Shown here: in pieces, positions 1,360 through 63,889 of the stretch
Position numbering within the stretch: position 1 is the first letter of the stretch
Layout: every line of letters begins with the position of its first letter
Assembly: GCF_022458985.1 (NCBI RefSeq)
Contig: NC_061774.1
Span: 11,088,616 to 11,152,615, forward strand
Direction: 5' to 3'
DNA length: 64,000 nucleotides
Source of the DNA: Mugil cephalus
Taxonomy: Eukaryota; Chordata; Actinopteri; Mugiliformes; Mugilidae
Notes under the pieces: generated by a model
Databases searched by the model: none
What the model saw: the letters and a program-made list of their open reading frames with translations, nothing else
What the model was told of the DNA's origin: nothing
Program-made: the position numbers and the translations under genes

Positions 1360-4300
1360 CACGTCTATGATCTGCAGCAGCGTGAGGCCCAGCTCCACCA
1401 GGATTGACGCTGAGTCATTGACCACAGGCCTCTCTAATCGATTGTAGTTCGCCAGCAGCTCCTTGTAAAGCCTCCGCTGGTACTCCCCCTGCAGGGAGCC
1501 TGGAGAGAAAGCAGAAAAAACAGATGTGGTTTGTGTGATACAGTATTTTATTAAATTAAATTTGCAACATCTGTATAAAAATTAAAAAAAAACAACAACC
1601 AATATTTAAGCACAGAGGTTTGTGTGACAAAATAAAGAATTGATATTACACTGTCTCCCACCCACGGTTAGCACATACTGTATGTGAGACCCTTCCAGCC
1701 ATAACCGTTTCTGAAGGTCAGTGCTTGACGTATGGACTGAGAATGGAGGTTTTCTTCTTTCATTTTAAACCGTAAATCTAGCTCCGGTGTTCCAGACAAG
1801 GTATTTTTAAAACGCCATCAGTGTATTGGCTTTCGCTATCCGTTTCCTTGGAACGTTTTCATGTATCCTTCTAATCCAGAGAGTAGCTTTAATGGTCTCC
1901 CTAACCTTTTACCCTTCCCTTGCTGGCACCAGCTGGTAGCCAGATTATAATTTACCTGGGAGAGTTTTAAGCACACGCACCGCACACTGCACACACTCCC
2001 TCTGCTGAGGCTGGCCCGAAAAGTTTCTACAGTTCACCCTGTAAAGTTCGGTATAAACACAGTATAATGTAAGGGGAAGGTGAGTATGTGTTGAGGCAGA
2101 AGTTTTGAAGAATAATGAATAAATAAACATGTGCTGACATCTGCGTATTCGTCTGCTGACTGTGACACACACACAGAAAGAGCAGCGGGACTGTGAATTG
2201 GTGTAGTTTTAAGGTCTTGGGTAATTAGGATAATGTGTTTGTTGGCCCAGCTCTCATCACCATTATTGATCCTCTACATCACTCGCAGCACACAGGTAGA
2301 ACGGTCCATTTATGCCAAAATGAAGGGACAGCTAAAGAGACAGAATCTCTGTCGCACTCCAGCGTTGAGAGTCTTTTGGACAAAGAGTGCAACAAGTTCA
2401 AACCGTCGCAGCACAAATCTGATGTCACAGCAGGTCATCTATGTCACGTTCTTAGCAGGTATTAAACAATCTTAATCTCCTGAGGAAATAGAGATGGCTC
2501 TGACCTATTTTTATGTACTGAGTCTATGTTAGCTGACCAGCTGTAGACCCAGGTACTACACACTCCCCGTTGATGGTTACAGGCTGCAGGCGGGGCAACA
2601 AAATGCAGGAAATTAACTTTAGCTCTTTAGCTGTAGCTATATTGAGCCTTCTTACCTCAACAAAACAAAAAAACACAAGCAAACGAATAAAAGGTATCAA
2701 TTTTTCGATTAAGTAAAATGTGATTAACAGACAAAAAATATATTGGATCATAAAGTTATTACATTTGCAACTTATGGTTTTCCATTTGCTTATTTGAAAT
2801 GCACATAGAGGCCAAGACAAACTGAATCCTTATGGACTAAATCAGCCAAATTAAAGGGTTTTTCTTAAAAAATTCATAGATTTTAGAAAGAGTTTCACAG
2901 GCTCAACAAGTCTTTTTAAACTTAAACTTCATTAAGTCATAAATTATAACAGAATGTTGTCACCTGTATGCTAATGTCTATAACAGAGCCGTTGGCATAT
3001 AGTGCCCCTGGAGCATCTGCGGTCGCGTTAATGCACACGAATTTAGCTGATAAAGTCACCTTCCACATTTAAACACTTAGTAAATAATCTACTGGGAAAT
3101 GATGGATCGAGGTAAGAATCGAAGATGTATAGTATGAATAAGAAATGAGAGGCGAGTATTACAGACACAGCCTTGTAAAGCTGTGAAGAGGAGAGGAGTA
3201 CGCCTTTGGCCTAGCGTGGTGCTGATTGGCCCATTAAGGCTGTAATGAGGAGAGTTATGGCAGGACTGAGCCCGAGGTCAGAGAAAGAGGAGTCGCAAGA
3301 AGCTGCTCAGCGCAGCAAAATACACGCACGCCTCCCGAGGAGCCACAAGCGCTCTGATTAATAGATCATTAGTTTATTCTCCCCACCAGTGCATCCACCC
3401 ATCCATCCTCCACGTCCTTCTGTGGACCACTGAGTGATTCACTGCTTTCCACAGACACATTCATATCCACAGACACATTTTGCACTATATTGTCTTTCTG
3501 TTTGTAAACAGACGTGAACGGACACGGTGTAAGTGTTGTAAAGGCTGTTTGTCCAATTGTTTCTACACAGTCTTAATAAATCAAGAGGCAGAACGGCCGA
3601 GCCGTAAATCTCATATTTGCACAAATATGGACGTGCACACAAACTGTGAGACAGCCTCTACTACAGCTTCTGCCCTGCCAGCCTCCCTCCTGCATCTTTC
3701 CTGCGTTTTATTACTGTGAAATGTGAACTGGGGCTGAACAAACACAACTAAACTAATAAAGTCAGTGAAGAAGAATTGAAAGCTCACTCTCTGTTGCTGC
3801 TCGTCTCATAAAACCGTGTTCAGAAGGAATCAGATACTCAAATGAAATAAACCACTGTGCCAACTTGAATTCATAAACAGACCGTGTGTGGCGTACGCTA
3901 GGGAAGGAGGGATGGATTCGTGAGTTGTTGATTTTTTTTTTAATCATCTCTCTAATGAAGCTAATATGAGAAGCTGGCATGAAGGTATCATCTTTCAAAC
4001 ACCACGGGAGGCACCATGAAGAAACTCCAGCAGGGGGAATGAAAAAGGGAATTAAAGGGAGTGGGACGAATACAAGATCTGTCATTTGTTCATCACAAAT
4101 TCGGTTTTTATCCCTGTTTTCCAAAAATGTCTTTTTATTCAAGGAACAGGATATAAAAGATGTTGGTAAAGCTCTGGTATACTTTGAAGAAGAAAAAAGT
4201 TTGCCTCTTGTTGATTGTTGTTTGTGAACTTATTTAGTAAGGGCTCAAATATAGCAGATGTTTATTTATAGTCCTACTCTTTACGCTGGATGTTTTAATT

Positions 4301-7300
4301 CAGGGTAAACACTTGCTGTTCCATTATTTTATTAGAATCGTCTTTCTTACCCATTCACTATACTGGCACCAACAGATGAACTGGGTAGAATCTAGAGCAC
4401 AGGTCTTCAACAGGAGGTCCGTGACCCCTACGGGGTCCGTGGAGGTAGTGCATTTTTTTTTTCTTTTTTTTTAAATTTCCCCCCACAATTTTAAATTACT
4501 TTAATCAACATGAACATGAATATGAACATATTTTAGTAAAGGGATAAATAGAGGTTGCACTTAATCCCTCCATCAGTTTGCGGGTCCTTGGCCTGAAAAA
4601 TGTTGATGACGTCTGGTCTAGAGGATTAATGATGTAGCTTCTCTGTCTTTTCCCATAGTTGCTGTTAATCTAAAGCACATTCACGCCAGTAGGATCAAAA
4701 ATATAAAACAATTATGTTGATTTTGACGCTAAACAAGAGGTGCCAAACATGCAGCCTGTGGACCAGTACCAGATCGCCAGAGTGTCCAACCCGGCCCCAT
4801 GGGAGGAATTTGAAATGGATAAGGGGAAGGAGGGAGACGTAGGAAGTGCGAAAACTACATTAAAAAAGCATTAACTGCAGTTTTTCAATAAAAGTAACTG
4901 CTGTTACTATTTTGTCCACTAGGGTTCACATTGTTTTAGTAAATGTTGAGGACATAATATAACGCAACATAGAGACCAGAACTAAACAGCAGATGGCAGC
5001 AAAGAGCTGAAATTGAGCTTATGCTTCTTAAAAAATGACGGGTTGTTCAAATAATGTTTTGTGAAATGACATTTTTATAATCTATGTTCTTCTTTGCGCT
5101 AAAATAAAGGGAAACATTCACAACTGTCGTTATTTATACGTTATTATGCCATTACGTTACTGGTGCGCTCCACTTGAGACCACTTCAGATGTATGTGACC
5201 CCTGAACTAAAACGAGTTTGACATCCTTGCACTAAACCGTATGTTTATTCTTAATGTCACTTTAGGCATTTCACCTTTCACCTGCAAACTTTGCTAGTAT
5301 TGATCTTAGTTTCCTGCTAAAGAGAAGAAAATTAGTGTGAATAACAGTGTAACATGTGTGTGCATGTTGAACTGACACGCTAATGAAGATTAACAAACAC
5401 AGATCAATACATCCAATTCTAACATAATGTGGGTCATTAGAGGAAATGTCAGAGGTCATCACTGTGTCCAGGTCAGGTGTGTTAGTGGAATTAAACAAAC
5501 TATTGATCAGCACTAAAAAAAAAAAAAAAACAGGTAAAACAGGGATTGTACTGTATACGTCTTCATGTGTTAAGGTCAAACATTTAAAGGTAATATCCAT
5601 AAATAGAGAGAAGGTCAAAGAACAATTCATCCTAATATGAGCTGCCCAACTCAAACTGGTATCTAACGCTGTGGGCATCATCAAAATAAAATACAGTAAA
5701 ATATGATTATCCAGCCTCCTTCAGAAGGTCACACAAAACACACAAACCAACAGCCCACACACAGCTCGAAGGCAGTGTCACAGTCCATAAATGTAGATGG
5801 TTGCAGATGACAGCATTGCTGGAAAAACAAAAAAAAAACAAAAGGAAAACAAAGAACTAAGTCATTCTCTCCAATTCAACCTTTTTTTCTTTATAAATCC
5901 TTCCTCACTCTTTATGTTCTGAAAGAATCCGATTAGCAGCACAGATTTTGTTGGGTATATGAAACGTCCCCTTGACAAACTCATCTGTGGTGACATTGCA
6001 ATAGATGATAGGGAGCACGCTGGGATCCAGTTATTTGGGTTCATCGGTAGTGAGTGAAACTTTAATGGCCTTGCTGTTCACCTGCAGATGGATTTGACTG
6101 GAGGTTAGGAGCTGAAAAGCGCGGAGCTGGTGAATGTGTCAGTTAAGCATGAATGAAAGAAGCTGACGCACTGAAGGCAAAGTTTTAATGTCACGCCTTA
6201 ACCTTTGCATCCATTAATTGCAGCCGGCCCATTAATATTCATGATTAAAAATAATCACTGTGACTTGCACTTTTTTACTCAGTGCAAATATGACTGGGGC
6301 TCGTACAAAACAGAGCCACAAACACGTACACAGTGTGAGAGAGGTCATCAGGAGAACCTGAAGTTTTGCTCAACGGGCCATTACACAAACTAAGCCAGCG
6401 GCTCAATGAGGAAAATAAAACATCAGCGTGAGATACTGAGATGGATAGGTGTGTTGTGATGATCAGACCCATCTCACAGGCTCAGGGGCCAGACTGGTTC
6501 TGTGTTTCATCTGTACCCCCTCCCAGCTAAATGTGTTCAGCTCTGTCCCATGGCTCTGACCACCTGCTTACCCTGTATGTGCCTTTACTACCATTTATAC
6601 ACTATACAATCTTTGCCACTGACGTTATTCACAGAAATAACAGCTTGGCTAAAAAGCTCAGACAAAAGATATTTTTAAAAAATGCTTCAAATAGTTGTGC
6701 ACCTCTATAAAAACGACAGACCTGTAAGTGGAGAGTAAGACCACAGCTCCCACACTAGCCGGTGTGCATAATAAAGGATGTGGCATTGCACACTCCTTTT
6801 TTTTCTAACAGGTCATTGAGAGTGTTTCCTCTCAAACTTCACGAGAACGTTGTTCTCCAGCAGGATCACAGGATGTCTGCATATAGAATTAGTCCTAGCT
6901 CACAGTAATAACCAGACCAAGGCTGCTTCTGTGCACCTCAGTGTCCCCGAGGGACTAAAATTAATACAGTTTACATATTCACAATGTCTCCTTTGAGATC
7001 GGGCTAATTCCATCTGTGTTTCCTTGACATCGTCATTTATCAGAAGAATATTGGACAGGTGCGCCATGTGGCAGATACTTGTGAATATGAATGGGCAGGA
7101 AATTAAAAAATGTGAGACACATACAGATGTAAATTTTGTCCGTATAATCTCGTCTTTGCATAAACTGGTGGAGAGACAGCCTGTCCACGAATGTGTCATC
7201 ATTTCAATCTGTAACGGGAGAAAGTCTAGACTAGGATGTAAAAGTTTTGAATGAATTCATGGAGAAAAATGTTAAATTTATGTGGACGGGACTCGTAGAT

Positions 7301-10300
7301 TTTTGTTGTACTGGAAGAACAATTAAGAATTGACAGCATCAGGACAGAGAGATGGTTTGAGAAACTGCCTGACAACAACAGTAATGCCTTCGTATCACGT
7401 AGATGTAGCTACCTAGGATAGGATTAGGGATAATTTTGCTCAGCATAATTGTCAAGGAAATTACTTAGTGTTTGCAAGGTAGGAAGAAAATGACACAGAC
7501 ACACCAGAGCTCTATATAAACCAGACAGAATCCCAGAAAATTTTGTATCACTCAAAGATTTCAAGTCCAACAAATTAGTCAACTCCCAAGCTTCTTTATT
7601 AGAGACAAACAGAGTTTTTTGTCAAATTGAAAAAAATCTGTTAAATAAATTAAATTCCATATTGGCAGAAGTATGACTGTAGAGCAGGTAGTCCAGGAGG
7701 ACAAACCGGTTAAATGTTCAACTTCACAGGTAAAACATGCACCTAAAACCATCATCGGTGTGGTCATAATAATCTGTAATCTGTGTGATGCAATTCATCA
7801 TCCTTTGTCAATGGGGAGGACAGAGCGTCATAGACACACTTACATGTTGCAAGGACAGAGGCAGTTTTAAATGTCATGTGCAAATCTATAAAGTGAAAGT
7901 CAAAAGTAGATCATTCCCATATTTCCTCCCTTTCAGCGTCTTTATTGCTGCACGCCTCTATCCTGCCTTTTTCTTCTCTGTATCGCTGCACCTCTTATCC
8001 TCAAATAATGCCTTTATCCCTTTACAAGCCTTTCCAAACCTCCACATATATTCTAGCCCCCCTCTTGTCTGCTACTTTCAGCATTTTGGTTCTGAGCTGC
8101 AGTGAAAGAGAGAATTGTAGAGAAATAAGTCTCAAAACTAACTCAGCTCTGAGTTGGTAAACAAATGGTGGGATTCGTGTAACTTTGGTAGAGGGCAAGT
8201 GAGGCCAAATAAACAGGTAGAAGGTGATTGGTGCAAACTGATCTGTTCCAACTGTGCAGCCCAAAATATATTTGTTTGGGCTGGCATCTAAGCACGTTTA
8301 CCTTCTTCTCTTTCGGCATCACACTCGGAATAATGAATGCTCGGAAATTTAGCTATGCAATGGTGCCCCATTTGAAGTAGCTTTACTGGGTCATTGCATT
8401 CAGATGAGACTATCCACAAAAAGACAGCCTGAGGTATCATCGTGACTCTCTCACACACACTTCTCAGACATCCACCCAAACAAAAAAAACAAAAACAAAA
8501 CAGGATTGCTATTTTTGGCCGAGCACTAAATGACCACCTCTTACATCAGGGTGTTTTAGTGCCCCTGACGTGGCCAGCTAAACCCGTCCAGGCTCAGCTG
8601 CTTCCCAGCTCACATATCAGAGGCGGAGGAACGATCACAGCTTTGTTCATCGGTCTCTTTCTGCCAAGGTAATCTGCCTTACTCGTTAAATCAAACATCG
8701 TCATAGTACTCCTGTGCTTTTGGGAAATCCAAAAATGATGTCACCACACATCGAATTGAGTGTAACAGGCTTCACCAACTGTTGTTCACACCAGTGATCT
8801 TGATGCTAGACATACTGCAGGAAGTGGATTCGCATTACGTAATTTAAAAGGGCCCCAGCTACACTGGAGGCTCTTCTGAATTACGTAATGCAAATCCCGA
8901 GGAATAAATAATGGGCAGTGGCGACAAAAGGACTGGGAATATTAGAACAGATGTGAAAAAGACAACCACTTCACTTTAACTGAACATTAAATAACATGCT
9001 GCCGGCTGGTTCTTTCTTTTGAGACTTGTATTTGAAAGAAAGAATTTAAAACGCTAATATTAGATTCCATTGCACTGAAATGGATCCTTCATTGCATAGC
9101 GTAATCTAATTTCATCCAAAATGCTATCATAATCTCTAAAAGCTAACTCTGTTGTCAGGTCTGAAACACAAAAAGGGCACTGATCCCGGAATGAGACAGA
9201 GAGACCAGAGTTATGAACCTGAGGGGGTACTGACTGAGCTGCACAAAGAAACCACAGACAGACCACCGCTCCCTGAAGGCCTGGAGAGTCAACACCACGA
9301 CAAGTCTAGGGCCTTTCTGATGCAGATCGAATGATATTGTACGGGGAGAACTATAATAGAGACAAATGTTTTCCCGATGCATTTGATGAGTTTAAACCTT
9401 GAGATTATAAACTAGAAAAGGCTGGGTGAAGAACAAGCATTCTGGTTACGAATTCTAACCGACTGTGATGAAATCAGGAAATAGTGCAAAAGCGCTGACA
9501 TAATGAAACAAAGCAAGATTAAAAAAACAACATAAATAAGCGACAACGATTCGGAAAAATGAATCCAGTCTGAGAAATACCAAGAAATTGACAACTAGGA
9601 CAACTTTTGGCTGGTTTCAAACCGTATCAATCCCCAAAGACCCCCATGCTTCACAGTTTGGTAAACAGTCTAGCACGACATTGCACCAACGCTCAAAGTG
9701 ATGCATAATTAATACGTGTGATTCGTTTTGTCACAGATTACCAGCAGTCTACCTGGGTGTTAACCACCGACTGCATATGGATTATCTAGGTGAAATCAGA
9801 CACTGCCACCATTCAGACCTTCAAAACTGCTCTTGTGTGGCTTCACTTCACCAGGAAGTAATTGTAGCAGTGCAAGGTCCAATTTATGCAGCACCGTAAT
9901 TTCAAGCAAGGGCGACAACATCTCCAACATAACATGCTGAGGTATTTGTTGATGACACACGCCATGGGTTCGACATCTCTGGTCAACAAGTCTCAGAAGA
10001 GCATTGCTGGTCAGGACCCAGGGGCCAATTCCCTATTTTTTCTTATTTCTTGTTTTGAAACTCAATAAAATTTCTGAAAGAAAGCATAAGCAGAATCGAT
10101 AATGGCGTTGGTATCAATCAAATCAGAGCCAATCCCCAATCGGCACTCTTCTGAATTTTCACTCGCCAAATGTCACGGTCAACAATAAATCTTTCAGATA
10201 TCGATCAATTACATGTGTCACAGCGACCTCACGTTGGTGTGTGCCAACAACTCCCTGCCAAATTCTAACACGTCCATGCGCTTGCAAATGGACGCCCGCA

Positions 10301-16480: not shown

Positions 16481-17920
16481 TCACAAACCAACACTTTATT
16501 GTGGTTATGGTGTCTTATTGCTGATTTGAACAACAACCAAAAAAGGTTAAATCTGGATTTTTCCTGATATAATTGTATTTCTGCTTTGTCTGCGTTGGTG
16601 AAAGCATCTTTAGGACCCGAGACTTCAAGGCCCAACATTTAAATTTTGCAGGTTGAAGATCTCCAGGACTGTGAGGGCCGCTCAATGCACAAATCTCCCA
16701 GTAAGAGTTGAACGATTGAGAGGAAACGGTAAGCACAGAAAGGAGCGTTAAGGCCAGTGGGAGCTATTAATTCTCTATCTTTTATAAATGAGGAGTGTTC
16801 TGTTAATGGACTTAATGTTGTGCAGTCGCCTCTGCTTCTTCCTCCTCTCTTTGTCTTTTTCCCCCTGCCATATCTCCGTGGTATTTTTCTAGTACATAAA
16901 GCAAACCCAGCGTGGATAATTACCAGCAACAGAATCAGAGCTGCGGCACGTTATTCCGCTCATATGGCGATGTATGTGAACACCGCGGTGCAAAGCAAAA
17001 GCCTATAAAGTCAGAAACAGTAGACAGATGTTTTCTCATCTCAGTTGACGCTTTTAAATTATTACTTGCATGAAATTTTCAACAGAAGACTGCATTTTGT
17101 CCAACATTTGTCTCATCTATTTCCCCTGTTTTTAAATTAAATATTACAAATATCCCAGCACGGTGCTTGCATATGTGTGCATGTGTGTGATGGAATGAGG
17201 TCAGATGAGCTTTTTGTCTGAGTTGCTTCCTTTTTAAGCGCAGAAGACGCCAAGGTGTGCGAGTCCATGAAAGCGAGAGTGCACATGGTTGGTGCGTGTA
17301 ATTCTCTAACAATATATACATGACATGTACTAAAAGAACAATTATTGCAGTTTTTGAAATTGTTTTTGCACTGTGTTTTTGTGTGTGTGAACATCCATCC
17401 CACACAGCAAAGTGCGTCTTATCCCTCCTGGGACGACTTTTCCTCTGTTGTGCTGCTGCCAACTTGCCATGTATCTCTGTTACACTTTACTCATGGGCTC
17501 TTTATCATAGTATGTCACAGAAAGGTCAGAACTCTCACACACACTTGGGAGTTTACAGTGGAAAAGGTCAGCAGGGCACACAAGGTCAGATAGTCTGGAA
17601 AACAGCAAAAAGGCCTTCGAGGGTTTGAGCACTGTGTGGGAGAACAAAAATGAGGTATGATCAAAGAAAAACTTTAAAACATCGAGAGGGGCACAAACAA
17701 TTATGCACAAAAGTATTCTCACAGAAACGTAGAAGTGCTAGTGTTCATAAATGATTTAAATTATTAATGATTATTGATCTTTTTGTTCATTTTCTCTGGG
17801 AATAAGCCCCGCTTCAGCTTTTATGTGGTCATTTTTCACATGACTGCATCCGAGCAAGATCTATAACTTTTGTTGTCTGTTGTCTCTGTCCTATTTAATT
17901 TCTATTTGGTCACTAGTTTT

Positions 17921-18005
17921 CTTATCTTATCTTATCTTATCTTATCTTATCTTATCTTATCTTATCTTATCTTATCTTATCTTATCTTATCTTATCTTAT
18001 CTTAT
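17921..18005. repeat. Pentanucleotide microsatellite (CTTAT)17
   Basis: Seventeen perfect, uninterrupted copies of CTTAT over 85 bp. The lack of any interruption indicates a young, probably length-variable array. Confidence 0.97.
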
Positions 18006-21766: not shown

Positions 21767-24700
21767 CTAGTTTGATGGTGGATCCTCGCTAGTAGTTGGT
21801 GGAGGGATTTTCAGGAACATGTGCAGAGCTGGGGTGAAGATCAGGATGGTGCCTAGTACTGAGACGGTGAGGAAAGCCCACAGGAAGATCCTGTCTAACA
21901 CCTGCGCCACAAACTTCCAGTCTTGTACCACCTGGTAAGAAGCAGAAACGAGATGTCACGACAGATTGTGATAATTTCTTGCGAATCTTTTGTTAGTTAA
22001 TGCTATACACACCTCGCGGATGAAGTGCTCTTTGCGGATATGTCTGCTGATGTAGCGCACTGAATAGATAGCTTTCTCCAGCATGGTGGCCCAGGCCTCG
22101 TCCTCCTTCCCCTCAGAAGTCATTTGCCCATGGGCTCCACTGTTTGTCCTCTGGCCTCCTCCTCTCCTACCTCCAGAGCGAGACTTCAGCTCGGGGCTTT
22201 CGGGAGCCAGCTCCGGGTAGTGGTAGCGGTCGATGTGTCCTCGCATGCACAGCAATCTAGGCAGCGTCTGAAGGAAAAGGTTCCGGACCCACGGCGACAT
22301 GGGGTGGTAGGTGGCCGACGAGCGGTGGTGCACGTTTATGACAAAGACGGTCACGATGATGGAGAGGGTGACGAAGATCATGATGAAGAGCAGGTACTCT
22401 CCGATGAGCGGGATCACCTTGGAAGAAGAGGGAATGATTTCTTCAATGACCAGGAGGAACACAGTGAGCGACACGAGTACGGAGGTGGAGAGCGACAGCT
22501 TCTCTCCCTCATCAGACGGGAGGTAAAACACCAGGACGGTCAGGAAGGACAAACCCAGACATGGGATGATCAGGAAGAGCGTGTAGAACAACGGCAGCCT
22601 CTTCAGGATGAAGGAGTATGTGATGAAGGGGTAGGAATACAAGCCATCCTTCCTGTTTCCCTTTGCGCCCGTGGCACTGAGTATTTCCCACTCTCCGTTA
22701 TCGAAGAAGTCTTTCCGATCAACCTGATTGTCCATCAGAACCAAATCCACCATGTTGCCGTCGTAGGTCCAGGACCCAAACTTCATGGAGCAGTTCTGGC
22801 GGTCGAAGGGGAAAAAGGTGACGTCCATGGTGCAAGCGGATTTGTAACTGGCAGGCGGCGTCCAGGTGATGGCACCATTGAACTTGACAATAGCTTTGGT
22901 CATCAGGGATCCTTCAAACCGCCCGTCAGCGCTGGAGAAAGAGACAAAGTTAGACCGATCACAACGGCATTCACAGAATAGTAATTTAATAACTTTTGAT
23001 CATAGCTCGACATTTCATAACTGCAACTAGCTACTCAGATTAACGTACTAAACTCTGGTTACACATTGAATTCTAAAATCCACACAAAATCAGATAAAGA
23101 TCATATAAATATTTACTTTTTCTTAGTGCAGTTTTTGAGTGTCTAAGCTTCACGTGAAGTAACATAAGTCAGCTGGCATGCTGAACACATGATCAGTCTT
23201 ACTTCTCATACAGGACGATGTCTGGGAGCCAGATGTTCTCTGAGGGAACTCTGATGGAGGTGATTCCTCCATATTTATCTGGATTCCATCGCAGCTTGTA
23301 ATCAATCCACTCCTGGTCGACATAAATGCACAGGACACATTGTCAGCAGCTTCTTTTTTTATTTTTTTTATTTATAGAACTTGAAGAGATCCTCTTTAAG
23401 ACCTAGAACTAGTGTTTGATTTACAATATTTACAATACTACAGTATTTCTTTGATACAAGATGCCAGTGTTAGGAATAATAACATTCACGGTGGGCATGT
23501 AACTTTCATTTTTGTGTCTTACCTGGCACAGCCACACATTAGTTGTCATTAGTTGGTTTTTCTCATCCTAAAACACACACAGCAGAAACAGAGAAAATAT
23601 TGATATGAAGAAAGGGAAAAAAGCGAATAAGTGCTAACATTCCATATTTGTTCATTTGTGATCATTTGTGTAATGTTGTTCATTGTTTGCACACTAAAGA
23701 TATTCAGGACCACGTTTAGACTTATTTGTTGAGGTTAAATGTCCAGACTTTGTGTCATACTTTTCTGATTCAAGTCAACATCTGTGAAATATAAACTCTC
23801 TAGTCTGGCCATCGCATCATGTAAGCTAAATTAAAGAGCAGACTACCCGAGAAACTTAATGGAACGTAAACTAAGCCATAGATTCACTTTAAGCTACTTA
23901 ACAAACTAGAAAAATAAACATAAACCTAAAGGTGGGTCCAGTGGACCAAGACAGGGCTGTATATAAATACATCAACAGTTAAGTAGAAGAAGACCAGAAT
24001 AGATAGAGGGAGCAATTAACTTATTTCCACATCACCGGAGGCAAGTTTGAAAGAAAAATGAACAGAAAAGACAAAAATAAACGCACCAACAAAGAAAGAG
24101 ACGTATTCGGAGCTGCAGCCGTTCAATGTTTCCAGCCAGGCCTCAGCTGTCAGAGTGAATTGGATGTTTTGGTGATCACATAGACCAGAGGTGAACAATA
24201 ATCTAATATAGAGCCATGCAGCAGCCCAGAAAGACTCAGGAGACATGCACAGAGGCTGTTTTGTTTACAGTTAGCTCTGTTTCTCTTTTCCGAAATCCAA
24301 CGGATCGAGGTAAGTCTTTCTGCTGGACAAAAATATGAAGGGGACTTATTTAATTATTTCTTATTTGTCTTTGGCAGAGAGAGGAGAGATGAAGACGAAA
24401 TCTAAACAGGTTGAAATGAATATTTCACGACGTGAAGAGCGGCCCGTCCATTAGCATCCTCAGTGTTCCCCTCCTGAACACCTAAACCATCTCAACCTAT
24501 CACAGTCAGCCTCTGAAATATTAAAGGAACACTCCAGAGAGGGGCAGTGTAGTTGTAGATATGAGCAGAGTGGTTCAGATCTATTTAAGGGCCATGGAAA
24601 GCTCCACGCTGAGTAGCGGCCAGTGGTTCGTTTGGCTGCAGCACCATGGACAGCGACAACGCTCAACCAAGCTAAGACAGGGCTACATTTAGATTGGTAC

Positions 24701-26761
24701 AGTATATTTCAGGTGTTAATTTGTTCTCTTCGTTTGAATGAAACTCTTCTGTTCATTGAATTCATGACAAACTAAATATAGAATTAGTTTTCAAAAATAA
24801 CACTTAAAGCCATGGACTTGGTCCCTAAGTGATTAGTCTTTTGCTGTGAAGTACACAAGTTACAAGATCATGTCATCAAGTGTGACATCTTTCACGTGAT
24901 TCTGCTAATTCGAAGCTTTAAAATACTTAGAAAACAACAACCTTTGACCTTGACAAAAAATAACTTTGATATGTGGAGTTTTGTTGAAAGTTCATGTGGC
25001 GAATGTTTGAATTTGGTTTAGATTAAGTTAAGGCCGAAGCCTCAGAAAAAATAAGATGAGGCAAACAGAAAATATGTTTGTTTGTGCAGGCGTCATCTCA
25101 CCACGTCAACCAGCTGAGAGATCTTGAGTCCAAAGCGCACTCTTATGGTGTCGTTGGCACGCTGGATGGGCCTCACCCAGCGCTGGTATCCTTGGAAAAG
25201 GTTCTTGAGCAGGGCGTCCTCCATCTCCGCCAAGGACACGAACTCATTCTGAGCTGGAACAATGAGGAACAAAAAGGATTAACAACTGTCCTTCCTCCAT
25301 AAATCTCCTCCAGCACGTCCACTGTGCCGTATCAATAGATGAGTAGAAAGTAGATAATTACAACTGTCTCTGTAATTCCAGTAAAATCATGATTTCTATC
25401 ATAATTTAAAATGATAAACATCATATAAACAAAAATTATAATGCTGCTGCAATTTACATTAAGTTGCTGTTTGGAGACATTTTTCAGCTTGAAAGACACT
25501 GCACTGACGGCAGCATCCTGTGAAAGCTCAAATGAATTTCACTTTAAAATAATTTTGCTGGACACCACACCACTGGAATATAACAAGATTTGATTGATGA
25601 TTTGTTGTAGTAATGAAATGTTCACACTCAGGATGGCACAGAGAGGTCTAACAAGTATCATTAACTTAGGAAAGCTTGGAAAATATACAGTGTATTATGT
25701 TATATCTGTAACATGAGCTTCCTTTGGGAAATCAGAGAACACTTTATACGGAGTTGGGTTTCTCAGGAACATTCAAACAGAATGACAAGTGAATAATAAA
25801 GCTTCAGGTTTGTCAGAAAATAGAGACAAATCATGGATAATACAGTATGGAGGACAGAAACTGGGCAGCCAGCACATCAGTTAGACTGAGCTGATATGAC
25901 AGGAGAGAGACAGAGACAGTAACGCCGATAAGAGACAGCTATGATGTTAGACACATGTCATGTTTGTGCTGAGGGAGAGGGAGGAGGATTGTTCGCCTCT
26001 GACCTGCATTCACCCTCTCACCAGATCTCATATCTGTCTGACTGTCTGACTACCACCCAGCGAGCAAACATAAAACACCGCTAGACTGTTCAATGTCACA
26101 AGCTGTGGTTGTACTTCCAAGGGCAGGTGCGACAAAGAGAGATGGACACTGATATCCAACACCTGTGTTCCTGTTCTCTGATGACCAATCAAGTTCAGCA
26201 GACACAGAGCTGTGAGGCCAATACATCACGGTTATGAGCAGGAGTGTAGGAGAATAACTCACTCTGCAAATATGACTCATTGTATCTTTTAATCTCCGAA
26301 TAAATATCGCAATTTAATTACCGTCACTCTACAACTGTATACCCAGGAAAACTGAAATGATTTTCTCTGTAACTGTTGAGCTAAAGTTGAGCAGCACACT
26401 GAACTCTTTAAATCTACATCCCAGAGTCAGTTTCCATGAAGCAAACGTTAAATATTTTAACAGTTGCCGTAGAGAGACATTAAAGGAAATCGTAAACTTG
26501 TTTTTCGTTTAGGTCATCAGAGGCGTTGATGTAAACCTTCACCGGCAGATGTTGAACCACATGGGCCCTTTGTCATGTCGTTAACCTCGCTAACATTCTC
26601 TGCATAAACGATACACATGCGTCGGGTGTTTATCCAAATAAATATTTAGAAAAAAAAAAAAAAAACACACACACACGAAGAGTTTTCTCACCGGCGATGC
26701 TGAAGTCGGACAGCGGACAAGACACCGACAGGAAGAGGAGGAGGTGGACGGACAACTTCAT
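21767..26761 (-). CDS. chrnb3: Neuronal nicotinic receptor subunit beta-3, complete
   Basis: Accessory, non-agonist-binding subunit of heteropentameric neuronal nAChRs, typically with alpha-6. Six exons: 26761-26692, 25253-25102, 23567-23523, 23312-23203, 22931-22013 and 21931-21767, coding 486 residues (human about 458). In order: signal peptide (1 to about 20); extracellular domain with [12 protein letters not shown] and ISQLVDV; Cys-loop Cys159-Cys173 with 13 residues between; loop C reading [12 protein letters not shown] without vicinal cysteines, so not an alpha subunit; M1 about 240-263; M2 about 271-291; M3 about 301-324; cytoplasmic loop; M4 about 445-470. M2 ([15 protein letters not shown]) has Val at 9' instead of the usual Leu, a known beta-3 trait. 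The last exon begins [18 protein letters not shown], as in beta-3. Alpha-5, its close relative, is excluded by the missing Cys pair. The start is fixed by the signal peptide and phase; the CTCAG-proximal acceptor 5 bp further in would break the frame. Confidence 0.95.
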
Positions 26762-35953: not shown

Positions 35954-36585
35954 GCACTGACTTACAATGACAATGTGCTTCTTTAAAGTTATTCATGTTC
36001 TTCTTCTTTAGTGACTTGTTTATTTTAAGAGCTTCTTCTACTGTACAACTGAAACAAGAGCCCGACAGCGTTAACACACAGTGGCCGAGTCAACATCTTC
36101 AGTTAAAACACACACACAAAGGAAATTAAGCCACAATGGCAAGACAACTCTTAAAAGATATGCTTTCAGCAGTGGTGGGTCAGACCATGGCGCAGACTTG
36201 GAAAAAAAAAAAAAAACAAAGAAAAGAGAACAGATGTGATAACGAGATCTGAAAAAAAAAAAAAAAAACATTGACAGAGTGAAGGAGACAGGCTAACAGC
36301 ATTGCTTGCACATTGATGGAGAGGAACGAGGAAATCTGGGTGAGTCACATGAGAAAAACAGACAGCTGAAGGCTGCGAGTGATGGCTGATGATGGAGTCC
36401 CACAGAAGAGCAAAAGACAGATATAGGGGACAAGAAAGCCAAGAAAGCAGGACAACTAGACTCTGGTGTTTGACGTGAAGGAGCGGCAAGATGGATAATT
36501 CCCACAGTAAGTCGCGTGGAGTGCAGGGGGAGACGGATGCAGACGAAAAGACAGGGAGGAAGAGTGAGGACAAAGACAAAAGGCG

Positions 36586-39500
36586 TCATTTGAAGAAGCT
36601 GATGAGCGGCTGGAGGAAGAGTCCCAGAGTCCCCAGCACGCACACTGTCACAAAAACCCACAGGAAAATCCTGTCGATGACCATGGCGACGTACTTCCAG
36701 TCGTCCTCCACCTGAGGAGAGAGAAGACGGGAATTTTGGTTTGTGCATCCATAAACAATCCTCCACAAAACCTTCTGGAGAATTTTGCTGAATGATAATT
36801 GCATGTCATTGTGTCAACACTTTGGCTGTATGGCTAAGTGTGTTTCTGTAAGAGAGGTTCAAAGGTTTAATGCTGGAAGTAGTTTCTGCAACAAAAACAT
36901 AATGCTGTGCAAATATTTAAGCTCTTCAGATGTTTAGAAACTTAACAGTCATGGAGGTTTGTGACCAGCCAGCAATGATAAATCTGCAGGGAACAACCAT
37001 AATAATAAAACCAGGGCTTCATTTTAATTTATGAATAATAACTAGTCATGTCATTGGTTTGAAAGCACCCATTCATCCTAATAGTTCCAAAACCACACAC
37101 ACTGTACAGTATGAGTGTTCCTTGATCAGTCAGGTGTGGACAATGGCTGCAGTGACCATTATGCTACTGTGCACACAGAGGAGGCGGCGGGGCTGTTCTG
37201 CACGCACCAAGATCCAAGCGTTGCTAAGAAAAGATGGAGGCAAAAGCAACAAACATATCAGGACCATCCAGAGTGTGGGAGTGAGGGGAGTACACAAAGC
37301 CCTCCGTCTGTGGCAAACAAGCAGCTTTACACTCCCTTTATAGCCCCGTGTGAATGGCTTCTATGGCACCGACGAGACCCTGGTGGAAATTCACCTACTC
37401 TGCAGAGATAACACGTGCACTGCAGCTTTGTTACGTGTGCATGCTGATTTGTGCGCCAGCTATAATGTGAGGACAAGATCTTTTCACCAAATTAAATGTG
37501 TTTTGTGGATTAAGGCTTTGTTTTGGGATGAGGATGTGATTAAGTTTGGATAAGGTAAGGCTGCAATCTAACACGGTTTAGTGAACATTTGTGTGAGCCT
37601 CTGCAATAGCACTGTGTCTGGTTATGCCATTTGCCAGGAGATGGTGCCTCATTACCCTCATTATGTGCTCGTGTTTGCATTTCCCTGAAGGTGCTCTCAG
37701 TACTCTGTATTAGTTACACATAGCCAGTATGTGCATAAATGCCCCCTTAGGTGTAACTGTCTAAAGCTCCATTCTTTCATTCCTCAATTGGCTCTGCCAG
37801 TTGCTTTTGTTTGGTTGTGTTTAGGTTATCTGCACTTGTATGTTCATTTTAGTACACGTCCTTTGGGGAAAACAGACTCAGTTTTTGTGCCAGACATTGT
37901 TAATCCAAGTCTGTACAATGTCTTCACAACTAAAGCGGGTTTGTGTTTCTGCAGTTTGAAAGACAACTTGGTGCCTGTAATGCCAACCATGAAACACAAA
38001 CACTGACATGTTGGTCAGAGATTCAGTGGGGATCGTATTAGGTGTAGTAGTGAGTAGTGGTGCTATAAGAACCGCAGGCAAAGAGACATGAAGCGCGGAC
38101 GACAGACATTCACTTTTTTCTGACTCACCCCACCAGATTATTTTTATTTTTAAACCTGTGGCCCTAAACCAAGTTTCCTCAAGAGAAGTCGCTTAAAGCA
38201 ATCCAGATATAGCGCAGCTCTTTCTAAAGTCACAAACCATTTCTCCCATTTAATGTGCTAAACCCAAAGACCTGTAAATAGACTGCAGAGTCTGTGGAGT
38301 TGGGGATGAGGTCTTTCATGGTCGTTTTTTATTACATAACGAAAAAGTGTGCAAAATGAGTTTATTTCCCATTACACACACGCGAGTCTTTTCAGTGAGA
38401 TACTGAATCATTCTTCAACGGCATTCAACCATGTGCTGAAAAATATCTTAAACCTAAAGTGAAGATGCAATTTAAAGCTTCACCAAATAATTGACCTTTA
38501 CACAGTCTGCTTTTTACAAGCCTCCATAAATCATTCATTCTTCAACAAATACTTTATTACAGCACTAACACACAACACAGAGTGTATGCTTGCTTATATA
38601 CCTCTTTGGCCTTGTTCCGTGTCCTCATGTTCTCTGCGATGTACTTCACGCTCTCTATGGCCTGCTTTATCTCCGGGGACACCACGGAAAAAGCGACGAC
38701 GGCATTGACTGGGGACGAAGCATTGAGGGGTCTGGGCAGCTTGGGAAGCTCTGACTCCTGGGGCCCTTGGGTCGGAGGAGCCGGGGGAGGAGGTGGCGGT
38801 GGCGGTGGCGGCGGCACCATTGGGGGAGGAACAGGAGTTGGCACCTCCTTGCCTCTGTAGGGACACCTCCTGTTTATGTCCCTGTTCAAGTCACGATTCA
38901 TCTCGCCATACTCCACACAGTTCATGGAGCCACCAGCCGAGGAGGTCCCTCCTCCTCCCGCACCGCTCTCCAGCGGCGGACATGCCACGCCTCCAGTTAT
39001 GCCTCCAATACTTACGCTTCCTGACCCACTTCCTATGCTGTTCTTCCTCTTCTTGTTTCCTCCAGCGCTCCCTCCCACCATGCCTCCTGTAATACTAGGA
39101 GGCGAGGAGCAGCCCTGGTCAATAGGCCTCCTCATCAGCATGACCCTGGGCAACACCCCGAGGAACACGGACCTCACCCACTCTGGCATTGTGTGAGTCA
39201 TCGGGGTGCGGTAGTGGACATTAAGCACAAAGACCGTGATGACAATGCTGAGCGTGACAAATATCATAGTGAAGAGGAGATACTCGCCGATCAGAGGGAT
39301 GACGAGCGACGTCGACGGGATGGTCTCAGTGATGACCAGGAGGAACACAGTGAGGGAGAGGAGGACAGAGATGCACAGGGTGACCTTTTCCCCGCAGTCA
39401 GATGGAAGGTAGAAGACCAGCACCGTGAGGAAGGATATGAGGAGGCAGGGGATGATTAGGTTGATGGTGTAGAAGAGGGGCAGGCGGCGGATGTAGAAGG

Positions 39501-42500
39501 AGTAGGTGATGTCAGGGTAGATCTCCTCACAGCAGTTATACTTGATGTCGTGCTTGTAGCCCGGTGCGTCAATGATCTCCCACTCGCCGCTTTCCCAGAA
39601 GTCTTTTAGGTTGACCTGATGAAGAGAAAAGTTATTTTTAGTGCGTGAAATTTAAAATCCAGGCAGTTTAAAAATACAAACCTGGTTGTAAATTATTCTT
39701 GATAGTTAAAAGACTCTGTTTTAAAAAATTAATCAGGGACCCATTTTAACCAGGATAAGTTTACAACCTTCAAAAAAGATGCGCTCTATAAATATTTCAA
39801 AGTATAGTAAAAAAAAAAAAAAAAAAAAAAATGCCATGTGCTACAAAGCAGACAGCCAGAATCTCTCTTTATCTGACCTTTGAGCCAATGAGCACCAGGT
39901 CGATTTTGGCTTTGTCATAGGTCCAGGAGCCAAACTTCATGGAGCAGTTCTGGTAGTCAAAGGGGAAGTAGGTGATGTCCATGGGGCAGGAGGATTTGAA
40001 GATAGCTGGAGGAACCCAAGTGATTGTACCATCAAACTTCAGCAGAGCCTTGGTCTTGTCCTCTACAAGGAAATCTCCCACAGCACTGTGATAGGTCGAA
40101 TGTTAGGAGAGAATTAATAATGATAGGTTAAGAGTTAGTAAGATAGGAGAGTCATCAGATGGCTAATTACAGCAAACTATGTTAGAGAAATATGCAGAGC
40201 ACACATGATGCAATATTTTAAGTGTATAAATAGCCTCTCAGGCAAAAGAGAAAGCAGAAAATAAATTGTCACTTTAATTATCTTAGAATTAAGCTTGAAG
40301 AAGAGCTCAGCATCAGGGAAGCTCAACATGGACTCCAACAGATCACAATTTGCTCACAAGCTACGTATGTAGCATCCAGAACTGTGACAGGATGTGTCTA
40401 TCCTGTTAACACACCAACTTTGATGCTTTGGTAAGCCTTTAAAGTTTCAGGTTCAATTTTATGCATCAGTCAAAAGCCTCTTTTACACGCACTGACTTCC
40501 TCAAATAGACCTGGAAACAATCCGAAGCTAAAACTCTGTGGTGTTAACTTCTTCTTCTAAAGTTTAAATTATCCCTTTACTTTCTCCTTGTAAAAGTGAC
40601 AGGACCACATAATCCTTCAAATTCTTGCAGATTTTTGCAACAAACAGAGAAATAAAATGCACTGGACTGTGAAAGGTTTCTTTGCATGTGACTGTTATGC
40701 TGAGTTGTTGTGCAAACACCTTTAGCTTTTACACACTAAACCTTACTTGTTGTACAGGACGATATCTGGTCTCCAGATCTTGTTGGACGGGACTCGTATG
40801 AACTCAATCCCATCATACTCAACAGGAGCCCATCTCAGTTTGTAGTCGTTCCATACCTAAAACAATCAGATATTACTTTACATTTATTATGAACATGTTA
40901 TAAAACACAACTCAAGAAAGAAGACGTGACCAGCACTCACATGTCTCAGCCACAGGTTGGTTTCCATAATCTGATTCACCTCATCCTGAAAACGTCAGAC
41001 AGGACCAGTCATCTCAGAATAATGAATATTTTCTTTATTTAAACACAGATATTAATGACACTGTTTCCCTCTTCTTACCACTTTGACGAGCTGAGATATG
41101 GACACCTCAAACTCCACAGTAACCGGATCAGAAACATTCTCCACTGGTCGGATGAACTGGTTGTACCTTCGGAACAACCTCCGAAATAATCTGTCCTCGC
41201 CCTTCGATGAAAAACAACCTGATGAAATAGAGGAGAAAGGGTACGACGTATTAGAGGAAAATAAGCCAATACAATGACATAACACACTGAGAGTATGGAA
41301 AACTATGTGCATTTATTACATTGAAATATGTAGGCCTTGGTAAGTCCTCCAAGATAATAAATGGTGGTAAATTGAATTTAACTCCAATATTACTACAAGT
41401 AGCAGTCATTCAACATTAGTGTCTGTTAGAGCAAATATTTCAGGGACACAGTTCTGAATGTTGGAGCCACGTTTACCAGCAAATAAGAACGTAATATAGA
41501 CAAATATGAAGCCAAACTGAATTCGCTTTACTCTGCTTTTAATTTTTCATTGAGCATACTTTGTTAGAAAGCTATCAACACAATGAAGCAACAAAGAATG
41601 ATGTGTCTTCGGCCAGCGTGACTGCAGAAGTGTAAGATTTGACTCAAGGTTATGTTGGGGAAAATGCCACTAGTAACTCCAGTGCCTACGGTCACGTGCA
41701 GATCCACGCCTGTCCAAGCAGAAAATGTTGCCTCACATGCGACAGCAGACGCTCACGCCACCAGCCTCAGAAACACCACTGTAGTGACTTTAATGAGCTC
41801 CATATCCTCTGCACGTAATGGAAATGGACCTAATCTCTTATTTTTACTTTCTTTATTCCAGTTTTTTCCATTGGATCCTAACTAAACACGAATCGTTTCT
41901 GTTCTCTCAGATTTCACTGTGACTGATTCGTTTTGTTCCAGCTCCAGCGCTGAGGCAAATAGCTGCAAAAGAGCAGAAGCAAATGTCTTCCATCCCAGCT
42001 TTTAAAGTCAAGAAGTGACGTTATTCGATAGTATGAAACCATCAAACCTGCACTTAGTGAGCCGCGTCTTAGAGCGGATGTGCATCAAAAAAAAGGGCAA
42101 GTTGAACACAGTCCATACGAACACAAAAAAAGCCACATTTGCTGAAAAAGGTTTGTTTCCTTGACAACAATAAATAAAACATGGACCCTTAATGGATGGA
42201 TGGATCAAGTCAGTGAACCCCCTGCTAACCAAAAGGCACCGGAAACTGGTTCACTTTTAGATAAGACACTTTTTATCCTTTCAGTTTGTCCTTTTTTCTT
42301 CACTGTCTCAGAAAATATATATATAAAAAATATTATATATACATTATGTTACAGTCCAGTATACTGACACGTTACATGCATTCCTACCAACAAGGTGGAG
42401 ATTTATCTGTTTGCTTTGTTGATCAAAAGGTTTTTTGCAATAAAGAGGTGAGTTTTCTGACCGCCCCTCCTTTTCCCAATGGTGTCAACTTTATTATTTT

Positions 42501-51046: not shown

Positions 51047-51069
51047 CCCAAAGGCCAAACCTGACGACC

Positions 51070-56700: not shown

Positions 56701-57280
56701 ACATTTGACATTTTTGCTTTGCTTATACAATAAAACCTGCTGTGTAACTATTATTGGAGACACCTGCAACCATATGCAAACACCTCGGTGGGATTAATCT
56801 TCACGCTTGAGTTTTTATTCAGATAATGCAATTATAAATTGGCACCTATCCATGTTCTTCTAATGTTTTGCGTTATTTTTGCTGCACACACGGAGGGACA
56901 AATCGTGTGCAACATTGGCTCACAAGAAAACGAAGAAGAAGAAATAATATAATATACCAAAAAAGCAACAAAAAAAAGCAATAAAGGTCAAGTGACGTTT
57001 AGAACCCACAATATGATGCGACAGTCTTGCCCTGCAGCGATATGGCCCAACAACACAACACCTAGTCACCCCTCAGTCCCTCCATCCCAGCCACACTCAT
57101 GTGGCTGCTCTCCTAATGGAAATTGATGCAGATGTCAAGTATCTAATTTATGTGTCAAACAGGGCGAGGATGGTTGAACAAATACGAGCTATAATTGCTG
57201 AGCCCAATTCCAGTTCAGTGGCTGTCACTACATCTGCAGGATTACGACGCTGTGCGTGTGTCTGTGCCTCTCTTTTTGTG

Positions 57281-57300
57281 TTTTTTTTTTTTTTTTTTTT
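57281..57300. repeat. T20 tract
   Basis: Homopolymer run of 20 T next to GTGTGT-type sequence; no flanking element recognised. Confidence 0.85.
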
Positions 57301-59527: not shown

Positions 59528-62500
59528 TCAGTTATGCTCCACGTCGTCGAGGATGGGGGTGGTGTAGTTCTGGAACAGAGGCTGCATGAAGAGGCCCAAT
59601 GTCCCGACCACACACACGCACACAAAGATCCACAGGAAGAGGCGGTCGATCACCATGGCCACATACTTCCAATCTTCAATGATCTGCAGGGAGAGAGAGA
59701 AACTAGATGTGCAATGCAGCCTCTGTTTTGTGAATGTGTTTGAACTGAACCATTATCTTTTATAATATATTATTGTCTCTGGTTCTTATTTTTTATATAT
59801 AGCATAGGTCTTCAGCAACTCGCAACTCACTGAATTAAACCTACCAAAGACCTGCTCTGATAAATGAATGCTTTATTTCGAACATGTAATACCAAAAAAC
59901 AAAACAAAGAATAGAACATTTGAACAATATTTGCTGAAAAGGAGTAGGAAGAAGCCTTATTTAATCCTACCCTGTTGTTATTTTGTCTACAGACACTCAC
60001 CCCCTCATCATCATCCTCGCTCTTCATTTTCTCTGCAATGTAGCGCACTCCATCCACTGCATCCTCCACGTCAATGTTGCTCTTGAGCGTCATCCTCTTC
60101 CTGAACTCCGTGTTCTCCGACAAGTCGCTGACCTTCCAGCCGTAGCGCTTGGCGGACTCCTCGTTGACGTAGAAGGACGAGGAGGAATCCGCCATCCCTG
60201 CGCCGCTTCCAGCCCCGCCCTCCGCGCCGCGCAGCTTCTGCTCCGAGTACTTTTGTTTCTGGTGTTTTTTTCGGAACCTTTCACGGATGTTGGAGCTGCC
60301 GGGCCTCCGCATGAAGAGGAAGGAGGGGAGCCGGTACAGGAAGACGCGCTTGACCCAGAGGGGCATGGTGTGCGTGCTTGGGGATCGGTGGTGCACGTTG
60401 AGCACGCAAACACTGGTGACGATGGAGAAGGTGACCAGCACCATCGCAAACATTAGGTACTTCCCAATCAGAGGCACTGCTAAAGACGTGGGTGGCACAA
60501 TCTTAGAGATTAGGAGTAGAAACACAGTCAGGGCCAGGAGGACAGAGATGCAAAGAGTCATCTTCTCGCCACAGTCTGACGGGAGGTAGAACACCAGAAT
60601 AGCTAGAGATGTGATGAGGATGCAGGGGATGATGAGGTTGATGGTGTAGAACAGAGGTTTCCTCTTTATGATAAAGTCATAGGTGATATCCAGGTATCGG
60701 ATATCATTGGGGTCTTCATTCTTGCGCCCAGGCAGTGACACAATATCCCACTCACCACTGGGTTTGAAGTCGTCGCGTGAGGCATAGTCACTGAGGAGGA
60801 TGAGGTCGATCTCCGTGTGGTCGTAGGTCCAAGAACGGAATTTGAGGGTGCAGTTCTGCTGGTCAAAGGGGAAATCGCGGACCTCGATTTTGCAGGCTGA
60901 CTTGTAGATGGCTGGTGGGAGCCAAGTCACCTCGCCATTGTTGGAGACCAGAGCGTTTGAGTAGAAAGAGACTTCATAGGTGCCATCGGCACTGAGGAAA
61001 AAATGTAGGGATCAAAAGAAAAGAGGAAGAAAAGTTAAGCTGTGAAATAAAGGATGATAACGGCAAGGAGCATGGCAAATCATATTGAGGCTATCTAATA
61101 ATTCATTCCAACCTATCTACACTTCAAACACAGATGATACTGTAGAAGATAATAGTGATAGTATTGATAATGCTTATTTGCTTTTAAGGCAGGTGCTTCA
61201 AACAGGCCTTATATACATACCTTGTCTAGCCTGGGTAAATCTTCAAAAAAAAATAGGTTAATCAAAAACCACTGATTATTCTGCTTAGCTTGTTAAAATC
61301 TAACCAACCCCTTGAGATATGTCAATAATGAACACTTTTCTGTATAAGATTATGGAAAGTAAGACTCTGTCTGAGGGAGTTTTCAAATAATCTGAACACA
61401 TATTCCTCTGGGAAACCTTACAACCCTTATCACACGTTAATGTGATGTGGTCGGGGTAGCGCTGATGTAATAGAGGTGTTGAACTACAGTTAAACCTGAC
61501 CCTGTATTTGCCTCAATACTACCTCACCCAGCCGCCAACCCTGGCAGATGATTTATACCATTAGCTATGCTTTTATTTATTCATATCAAATATTCCTGCC
61601 ATGGCTGCAAATTGACACTCTGCTTCATCAGACTGCTCATTGACAGATTCTTCCACACCTTTAACCTTTAACGACGATGTGTTCATCATCTCCAGAGAAG
61701 AGCAACATCGAACCTGCTGAGACTTTTCTTCGTCCCACCAAGTCTGCAGTTGATGCATTATGAATACAGCGCACATCAATTATAAAGCAACTTAGGAATT
61801 CAACCATCACACTTGACCTCTTTGGTGCTGCAGCGTAGGCTAATTAAAAATGCAGAGACCACACCTGCTCACTGTGACCTGTCAGACTTGGTCAGAAAGC
61901 TCAACCTGAAGGTATAAAGTAGTGCTGATCATCTCTTATCATTTTGTGTAGGCAAAATCATTACACTTTTGTAATGTGTTCCTTAGCTGACCAGCAATCT
62001 ATGTTCATAAAAGTTTAACGCCTTCACGGCCTGTTAACGGTGCAATGACTTCGCTGACCCAAACACAAAAGCTACAAGTCCAAACAACTGTGAGTCACCT
62101 CAGCCTCAGGCTGAGAGCATAGATGGCATTCAATGCACAGTTTAAGGAAACAATATGACAGCTTTCTCAGGTCTCAGCAGATGTGATAGTGTGTGAAGTG
62201 ATGATAATATAAGGTAGGTGAAACTTCACAGAAAACAAAAAACATAAAAAACAGTACAGTCAAAACTAGATTGAACTCTGATCATAAGACTAAAGGCTTC
62301 ATGGATACATCAAGGTTTAAATGAGCAGTTAATGTTATACAACACATCAACATCAGACCAATGTGTTCATCTGTATGTATGACAGATGAAGTGAGGTCCA
62401 AAAGCCTTCGTATCTGTTACCATACCATAATACTCCAGTGAATATGGGCAGCATGACTAATTTGTCCTTGACTCAACTCACAACAGCACCGAGTTTCTCC

Positions 62501-63889
62501 TGTATTGATCTTCTGTAACAATTTTATGCAGATTTTAGATGTGAACACAACATGAAAATGATCTTCGATCAATATTTTGTGCTGCTCAGTAAGAAGAAAC
62601 ACGCACGAAATTGCACAGGGATTTGTCCTGTTTCAGTCCTGTTCAGCTTGTAACCGTATTAGTCGGTAAGTTAGTGTAAGTGTGTTATAGCACACTGATT
62701 TTTGTCAAAACATTAATGGCCAGTGAAGGCCATGATGTGGTCCTGTGTATATATTGTATTGATCCACCTCCAGGTCTGTAGTGTGCAGTACAAATACACA
62801 AGAATACTTTTTTTTAATTTAAGGTATTTCACTCTGTATGTGTGGGAAAATAAACCCTGTCATGTGTGATCGTCTGGTGGCCTTATTCTGGTTAAAATTA
62901 TCTCAAGCACGATTAGAAGCTAAACATTATAATATATAGCCTTCACAGCAGCAGTAATCATGGGCTATAATATTATGTGTTCAGGGTGTCCTTTGGTTTG
63001 TTCATCTTGACATCTCTCGAGTGGCTTGAAGAAATTTCTACAGATTTGTTCCAAACACTTGGAGTCATGGATGAACCGATTTAAATTAAGTGTTCAAAGG
63101 TCAAATCTCTGGTCCCTGTATCCTCAGAAAACACATTTTTGGTCATATGCTAATAAGGATCAAATTTCCCACACATGTCTAACAGGATAAAATTATTTAG
63201 TGATAACATTTTATGTGTAAAAAGTCAAAGATCAACCCTACTGGGACATCAGGAGAATCCCTTGATTGGTTAATGGAGTTAAAGTGGCTGCAAGGCAGAT
63301 ATTTTTGATGCCATGTGTATTACAGTTAATGCTAAAGTCAATTGCTATTGCTAGCTACTAGTTTCTTGACAAGGACACTAATAATTAAAATGTGACCAAA
63401 TTCACTAGAACCGTTAATCTTCAGGATTAATACTTAACAATGTCTACTATGGCCCTACTTGTTTAAGCTTTTCACCAGATTTTTAATCTCACTCTCTCCC
63501 AATCTCACTTTGTGTCATCACAAGGTTCCCAGTGGTGTTAAATAAATGTATTTGGTGGAATTCATTATGTCAAAAGATCTGACAAGTGGGTTTAAAAGGG
63601 ACACGTACGAGGATGGATGGCATAAGAGGATAAAATAATAAAAACAAAACAAAAACAAACCTTTTAGGAAAATGGGGGATTTTGTAACTATTGCAATGAA
63701 GTTGCTCAGTCTTTGTTCCCACTTTCATTACTTAGTTTTACACACACACGCGCGCGCGCTCATTATGTCGGTCACATACTTGTTATAGAGGACGATGTCT
63801 GGCAGCCAGATGTGCTGCGACGGGAGCCTGATTTTCTTGATTCCCTCATACTCTTCAGGGTCCCACATTAATCTGTAGTCGTTCCACCC
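59528..63889 (-). CDS. Neuronal nicotinic receptor beta-2/beta-4-type subunit, 3' part
   Basis: Structural beta subunit supplying the complementary face of the agonist site in neuronal nAChRs. Three exons are in the window: 63889-63780 (110 bp), 60991-60001 (991 bp) and 59683-59528 (156 bp), all with consistent phases, giving the last 418 residues; exons 1-3 are off the right edge. Visible are [20 protein letters not shown], the Cys-loop KSACKIEV...FPFDQQNC, a loop C without paired cysteines ([14 protein letters not shown]), M1-M3 with M2 [20 protein letters not shown], a basic cytoplasmic loop, and M4 in [16 protein letters not shown]. It mixes beta-2-like ([28 protein letters not shown]) and beta-4-like ([23 protein letters not shown]) segments. 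Its place upstream of chrna6 mirrors CHRNB4 upstream of CHRNA3. It may be the fish beta-5 gene (chrnb5) rather than chrnb2 or chrnb4; the sequence here cannot settle it. Confidence 0.9.
63010..63290. repeat. Decayed copy of an abundant fish interspersed repeat
   Basis: In order it contains GAAATTTCTACAGATTTGTT, CACTTGGAGTCATGGATGAA, TTCAAAGGTCAAATCTCTGG, TTTTTGGTCATATGCTAAT, TGTCTAACAGGATAAAATTA and TAACATTTTATGTGTAAAAA, then GTCAAAGATCAACCCTACTG. This order is typical of a repeat very common in percomorph fish (GTCAAAGGTCAAGGTCAC type). Ends are approximate and the class is not assigned. Confidence 0.62.
63741..63759. repeat. Alternating CA/CG (Z-DNA-prone) tract beside a splice donor
   Basis: CACACACACGCGCGCGCGC, strictly alternating pyrimidine and purine over 19 bp, about 20 bp inside the intron from the donor GT at 63779-63778 of the beta-2/beta-4-type gene. 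In the transcript it reads as a GC/GU alternation. Confidence 0.8.

Follow-up and report, generated by a model that had tools for sequence, protein, structure and literature searches.

A row of four nicotinic receptor subunit genes in Mugil cephalus is very probably the fish copy of an old vertebrate block

The stretch of Mugil cephalus DNA analysed here (the window, 64,000 bases) carries four different nicotinic receptor (nAChR) subunit genes on its minus strand between positions 1360 and 63889, as found by translation and motif scans of the whole window. From right to left these are a beta-2/4/5-type gene, an alpha-3/6-type gene, chrnb3, and an alpha-7-type gene. With a probability of roughly 0.88, we read the window as the fish copy of an old vertebrate block, chrna8-chrnb3-chrna6-chrnb5, in which the linkage is ancestral. 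The genes and exons on one strand are seen here, and the regional linkage and the losses in other lineages are taken from the text of PMC6354393. The row of four is already accounted for by the known vertebrate block and is ordinary except for the direction of one gene.

The exon models were built by hand, and frame and splice sites were checked by script. All 15 verified exons are open, with AG/GT at the internal junctions, and the predicted first exon of chrnb3 brings the count to 16. The models are as follows:

63780..63889, minus strand: probable chrnb5 exon 4, 110 bp (exon model; exons 1-3 are to the right, outside the window)
60001..60991, minus strand: probable chrnb5 exon 5, without the vicinal cysteine pair (exon model)
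59528..59683, minus strand: probable chrnb5 exon 6, M4 and stop (exon model)
41079..41218, minus strand: chrna6 exon 2, 140 bp (exon model)
40941..40985, minus strand: chrna6 exon 3, 45 bp (exon model)
40747..40856, minus strand: chrna6 exon 4, 110 bp (exon model)
39878..40085, minus strand: chrna6 exon 5, first half, Cys-loop (exon model)
39616..39877, minus strand: extra phase-0 intron, 262 bp, splitting chrna6 exon 5 (donor GTCAGA, acceptor CATCAG)
38602..39615, minus strand: chrna6 exon 5, second half, with the CC pair, M1-M3 and a long low-complexity loop (exon model)
36586..36711, minus strand: chrna6 exon 6, M4 and stop (exon model)
26692..26761, minus strand: chrnb3 exon 1, predicted signal peptide (one of seven candidates, with a GTGAGA donor in the right phase)
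25102..25253, minus strand: chrnb3 exon 2 (exon model)
23523..23567, minus strand: chrnb3 exon 3, 45 bp (exon model)
23203..23312, minus strand: chrnb3 exon 4, 110 bp (exon model)
22013..22931, minus strand: chrnb3 exon 5, Cys-loop to intracellular loop, without the vicinal cysteine pair (exon model)
21767..21931, minus strand: chrnb3 exon 6, M4 and stop (exon model)
1360..1499, minus strand: alpha-7/8/11-type gene exon 2, 140 bp (open; AG acceptor and GTGAGG donor; matches PDB alpha-7 and PF02931)

Three of the spliced models contain both PF02931 and PF02932 (Pfam), with E values no higher than 2.9e-52. The fourth, the alpha-7-type gene, of which the window holds exon 2 only, matches PF02931, and so belongs with the Cys-loop receptors as well. 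These four minus-strand models with channel-domain matches bear out the claim of the first-pass annotation that four nAChR subunit genes share one strand within 1360-63889. The genes at the two ends are incomplete. On the left, alpha-7-type exon 2 has its 3' end at position 1360, and the remaining downstream exons of that gene lie outside the window; on the right, exon 4 of the beta gene has its 5' end at 63889, and the gene is cut off before that exon.

A tblastn search for duplicate or pseudo-exons with the models (E 1e-3) returned nothing beyond the exons already modelled and the similarity among them. The window has 35 stop-to-stop frames of at least 110 residues; 20 were run against Pfam for further genes at E 0.01, and none of these 20 gave a match. 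Among the other 15, three hold the large receptor exons, nine run across receptor exons in a different frame or on the opposite strand, and three on the minus strand (36169-36585, 6903-7256, and 3765-4229) were left out of the scan. Rfam gave no match in the window at gathering thresholds, and this includes an imperfect 72-base inverted repeat at 8826-8897 (81% over 74 aligned positions). The repeat could be a short mobile element, and 8821-8903 folds as a single long hairpin (-43.3 kcal/mol). At 17920-18005 lies a perfect tandem array of the pentanucleotide TCTTA (17.2 copies).

The whole chrnb3 model spans 21767-26761 in six exons, the first of them predicted only. Its spliced extracellular part scores 408 bits with the PDB beta-3 extracellular domain, and the next chain, alpha-2, scores 295; 19 sequences were listed in this comparison, with no alpha-5 chain among them. 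Identity to PDB beta-3 is 167/208 (80%). The model has no CC pair before M1, and CHRNB3 is described in the text of PMC6354393 as lacking the vicinal cysteine pair. By sequence, the beta-3 identity of this gene is unambiguous among the PDB chains compared, which did not include alpha-5.

For the alpha-3/6-type gene, alpha-6 and alpha-3 cannot be told apart by sequence alone. Exons 2 to 6 span 36586-41218, with exon 5 in two pieces, and a signal-peptide and donor scan for exon 1 gave nine candidates, none of which was taken. The CC pair is present. Identity is 275/333 to PDB alpha-6 versus 276/329 to PDB alpha-3. At the 73 columns where these two chains differ, the gene agrees with alpha-6 in 27, with alpha-3 in 30, and with neither in 16; polarised by alpha-4, the tally is 4 with alpha-6 versus 3 with alpha-3. 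A tree groups the gene with alpha-6, with a support of only 49. In the PDB search, its long stretch favours alpha-6 by a 6-bit margin (650.7 versus 644.5 bits for alpha-3), and the transmembrane exon by itself scores better with alpha-3 (359.6 versus 337.4). We use the name chrna6 because the neighbouring gene is beta-3, together with the 6-bit margin. The intracellular loop, within 38602-39615, is long and of low complexity, containing stretches rich in glycine and eleven consecutive prolines.

The beta gene had been labelled beta-2/beta-4-type in the first-pass annotation. The type fits, but the gene is better read as CHRNB5, since it is equidistant from beta-2 and beta-4: 217/267 residues are identical to PDB beta-2 (81.3%) and 193/237 to PDB beta-4 (81.4%), with 195/234 (83.3%) identical between those two chains. 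At the 39 columns where beta-2 and beta-4 differ, the gene agrees with beta-2 in 13, with beta-4 in 12, and with neither in 14. When these states are polarised by alpha-3, it has one derived state in common with beta-2 and three with beta-4. A tree of nine sequences places it outside the beta-2 and beta-4 pair (support 78), and the model has no CC pair. Equidistance and a position outside the pair are the pattern due of a third ohnolog. The gene is thus probably CHRNB5, by exclusion through comparison with beta-2 and beta-4.

At the left end, a 49-residue stretch of alpha-7-type exon 2 matches PDB alpha-7 at E 2.7e-13, with 31/46 residues identical, and the exon scores 27.2 bits with PF02931 against a cut-off of 26. 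Together, these two scores indicate more than a chance match. The exon is equal in length to chrna6 exon 2 (140 bp) and lies 20 kb from chrnb3. Two alpha-7-type exons had been claimed for the stretch; the one at 1360-1499 was verified, but the second was not confirmed. For exon 3, the search found nothing in the window, the best candidate on the minus strand left of 21000 agreeing at 5/13 scored positions. For exon 1, scans for a signal peptide and donor turned up 26 weak candidates with no clear choice among them, and an earlier, stricter scan of the window gave none. Genes of the CHRNA7/8/11 subfamily have nine introns, of which four are found in this subfamily only. An identity of 31/46 to PDB alpha-7 is compatible with alpha-8 or alpha-11.

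The published history of these genes provides the context for the block. According to the text of Pedersen, Bergqvist and Larhammar 2019 (PMC6354393), ten ancestral nAChR genes became 19 through 1R and 2R, including the triplets CHRNA7/CHRNA8/CHRNA11 and CHRNB2/CHRNB4/CHRNB5, and mammals are without CHRNA8, CHRNA11, and CHRNB5 through loss. In spotted gar, CHRNA6/CHRNA8/CHRNB5/CHRNB3 are treated there as one region, which forms paralogon 1 with the regions CHRNA11/CHRNB2 and CHRNA3/CHRNA7/CHRNB4/CHRNA5. CHRNA11 is placed with CHRNB2 and not with the CHRNA6 region (PMC6354393, text). Because of this gar region, the alpha-7-type gene expected beside chrnb3-chrna6 is chrna8. From one 46-residue exon and its position, the gene is probably chrna8.

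The first-pass annotation had found the alpha-7-type gene unexpected by comparison with mammals, and had offered an ancestral arrangement or a fish translocation as explanations. The first is supported, as CHRNA8 shares the gar region with CHRNA6, CHRNB5, and CHRNB3 (PMC6354393, text). A fish-specific translocation that brought a true chrna7 beside chrnb3-chrna6 is improbable. The exon is indeed alpha-7-type by its PDB match, and mammalian CHRNA7 (chromosome 15) is unlinked to CHRNA6/CHRNB3 (8p11), as given in the texts of PMC6354393 and PMC5575130. However, the text of PMC6354393 already places the CHRNA7 ohnolog CHRNA8 in the gar CHRNA6 region, and 31/46 identity to PDB alpha-7 does not demand chrna7. 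The contrast with mammals itself is correct, but it is a surprise only if the alpha-7-type gene is CHRNA7. The oddity is only apparent: mammalian CHRNA7 is an ohnolog of the gene expected here, mammals having lost CHRNA8 and CHRNB5.

Slightly less probable again is that the genes are misnamed and the window corresponds to the sister block, chrna7, chrna5, chrna3, and chrnb4. The alpha-3/6-type gene is equally close to PDB alpha-3 and alpha-6, and alpha-3 gives the higher score for its transmembrane exon taken by itself. Against this, the third gene is 80% identical to PDB beta-3 (in a comparison of 19 listed chains without alpha-5) and likewise has no cysteine pair, and the beta gene is not nearer beta-4 than beta-2. 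The least probable alternative is that the left end is an assembly misjoin or an alpha-7-type pseudogene. The window holds a single verified alpha-7-type exon, 20 kb from chrnb3, but the exon is open, with proper splice sites and the 140-bp length of chrna6 exon 2, although a lesion could lie further left. The window has an N count of zero, and GC is steady at 0.378 to 0.456 in 4-kb steps, values that a misjoin could also leave.

If the window is the chrna8-chrnb3-chrna6-chrnb5 block, then alpha-7-like, alpha-5/beta-3-like, alpha-3/6-like, and beta-2/4/5-like ancestors would have been linked ahead of 1R and 2R. One of the resulting blocks would have retained CHRNA7, CHRNA5, CHRNA3, and CHRNB4, and the other CHRNA8, CHRNB3, CHRNA6, and CHRNB5; the loss of CHRNA8 and CHRNB5 in mammals would then leave CHRNB3 and CHRNA6 alone there. 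Each gene here would encode an ordinary subunit of pentameric acetylcholine-gated channels. From general knowledge of the nAChR family, alpha-6, with its CC pair, would give the principal face of the agonist site and beta-5 the complementary face, while beta-3, without the pair, would act as an accessory subunit and alpha-8 would be an alpha-7-like subunit.

The extra intron inside chrna6 exon 5 belongs to a kind already described. Neuronal genes of the chrna6 group have one very large exon 5 in common, and intron gains in CHRNA6, CHRNB5, and CHRNB3 are reported in medaka, stickleback, and fugu (PMC6354393, text). Many of the teleost gains described there are in the intracellular part, whereas the intron here sits in the extracellular part, and neither chrnb3 nor the visible part of chrnb5 has an extra intron here. 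Consequently, the chrna6 intron is not to be equated with the published gains. Its GTCAGA donor is the only one with C in third place among 13 donors. The exon that follows the intron also begins with GTCA; GTCA at both sites would fit intron birth via duplication of an AGGTCA site.

Orientation is the one point on which the row departs from a described arrangement. Here, chrnb3 and chrna6 are head-to-tail, both on the minus strand, whereas human CHRNB3 and CHRNA6 are tail-to-tail in the text of PMC5575130. Human CHRNA3 and CHRNA5 are also described as tail-to-tail (PMC4769750, text). The convergence is probably ancestral because these two pairs, CHRNB3/CHRNA6 and CHRNA5/CHRNA3, are ohnologs, and in that case chrnb3 probably turned in the Mugil cephalus lineage or in fish generally. 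By this comparison, there is an even chance that a single-gene inversion of chrnb3 took place in this fish lineage and that the head-to-tail row of four is derived. If true, the inversion may alter shared 3' or enhancer control. Gene orientation and the chrna6 intron gain each provide a small testable point, and neither alters the reading of the block.

In humans, CHRNA7 lies far from CHRNA5-CHRNA3-CHRNB4 on chromosome 15. That trio is the ohnologous set of the genes described here, with CHRNA5 corresponding to CHRNB3, CHRNA3 to CHRNA6, and CHRNB4 to CHRNB5 (texts of PMC6354393 and PMC4769750). CHRNA7 is on the same chromosome as the trio (PMC6354393, text), and an alpha-7-type gene is likewise present in the block here. 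Human CHRNB3-CHRNA6 at 8p11 are the two inner genes of the block and are also adjacent (PMC5575130, text); unlike the block here, mammals have lost CHRNA8 and CHRNB5. Spotted gar has the same four subunit types in one region. The block here is tight (within 64 kb, with open ends) and on one strand, while the regions in PMC6354393 extend 10 Mb to each side, and its text gives neither distances nor strand for the gar genes. The row in Mugil cephalus can be viewed as the ancestral nAChR block in compact form, for which mammals are a misleading yardstick.
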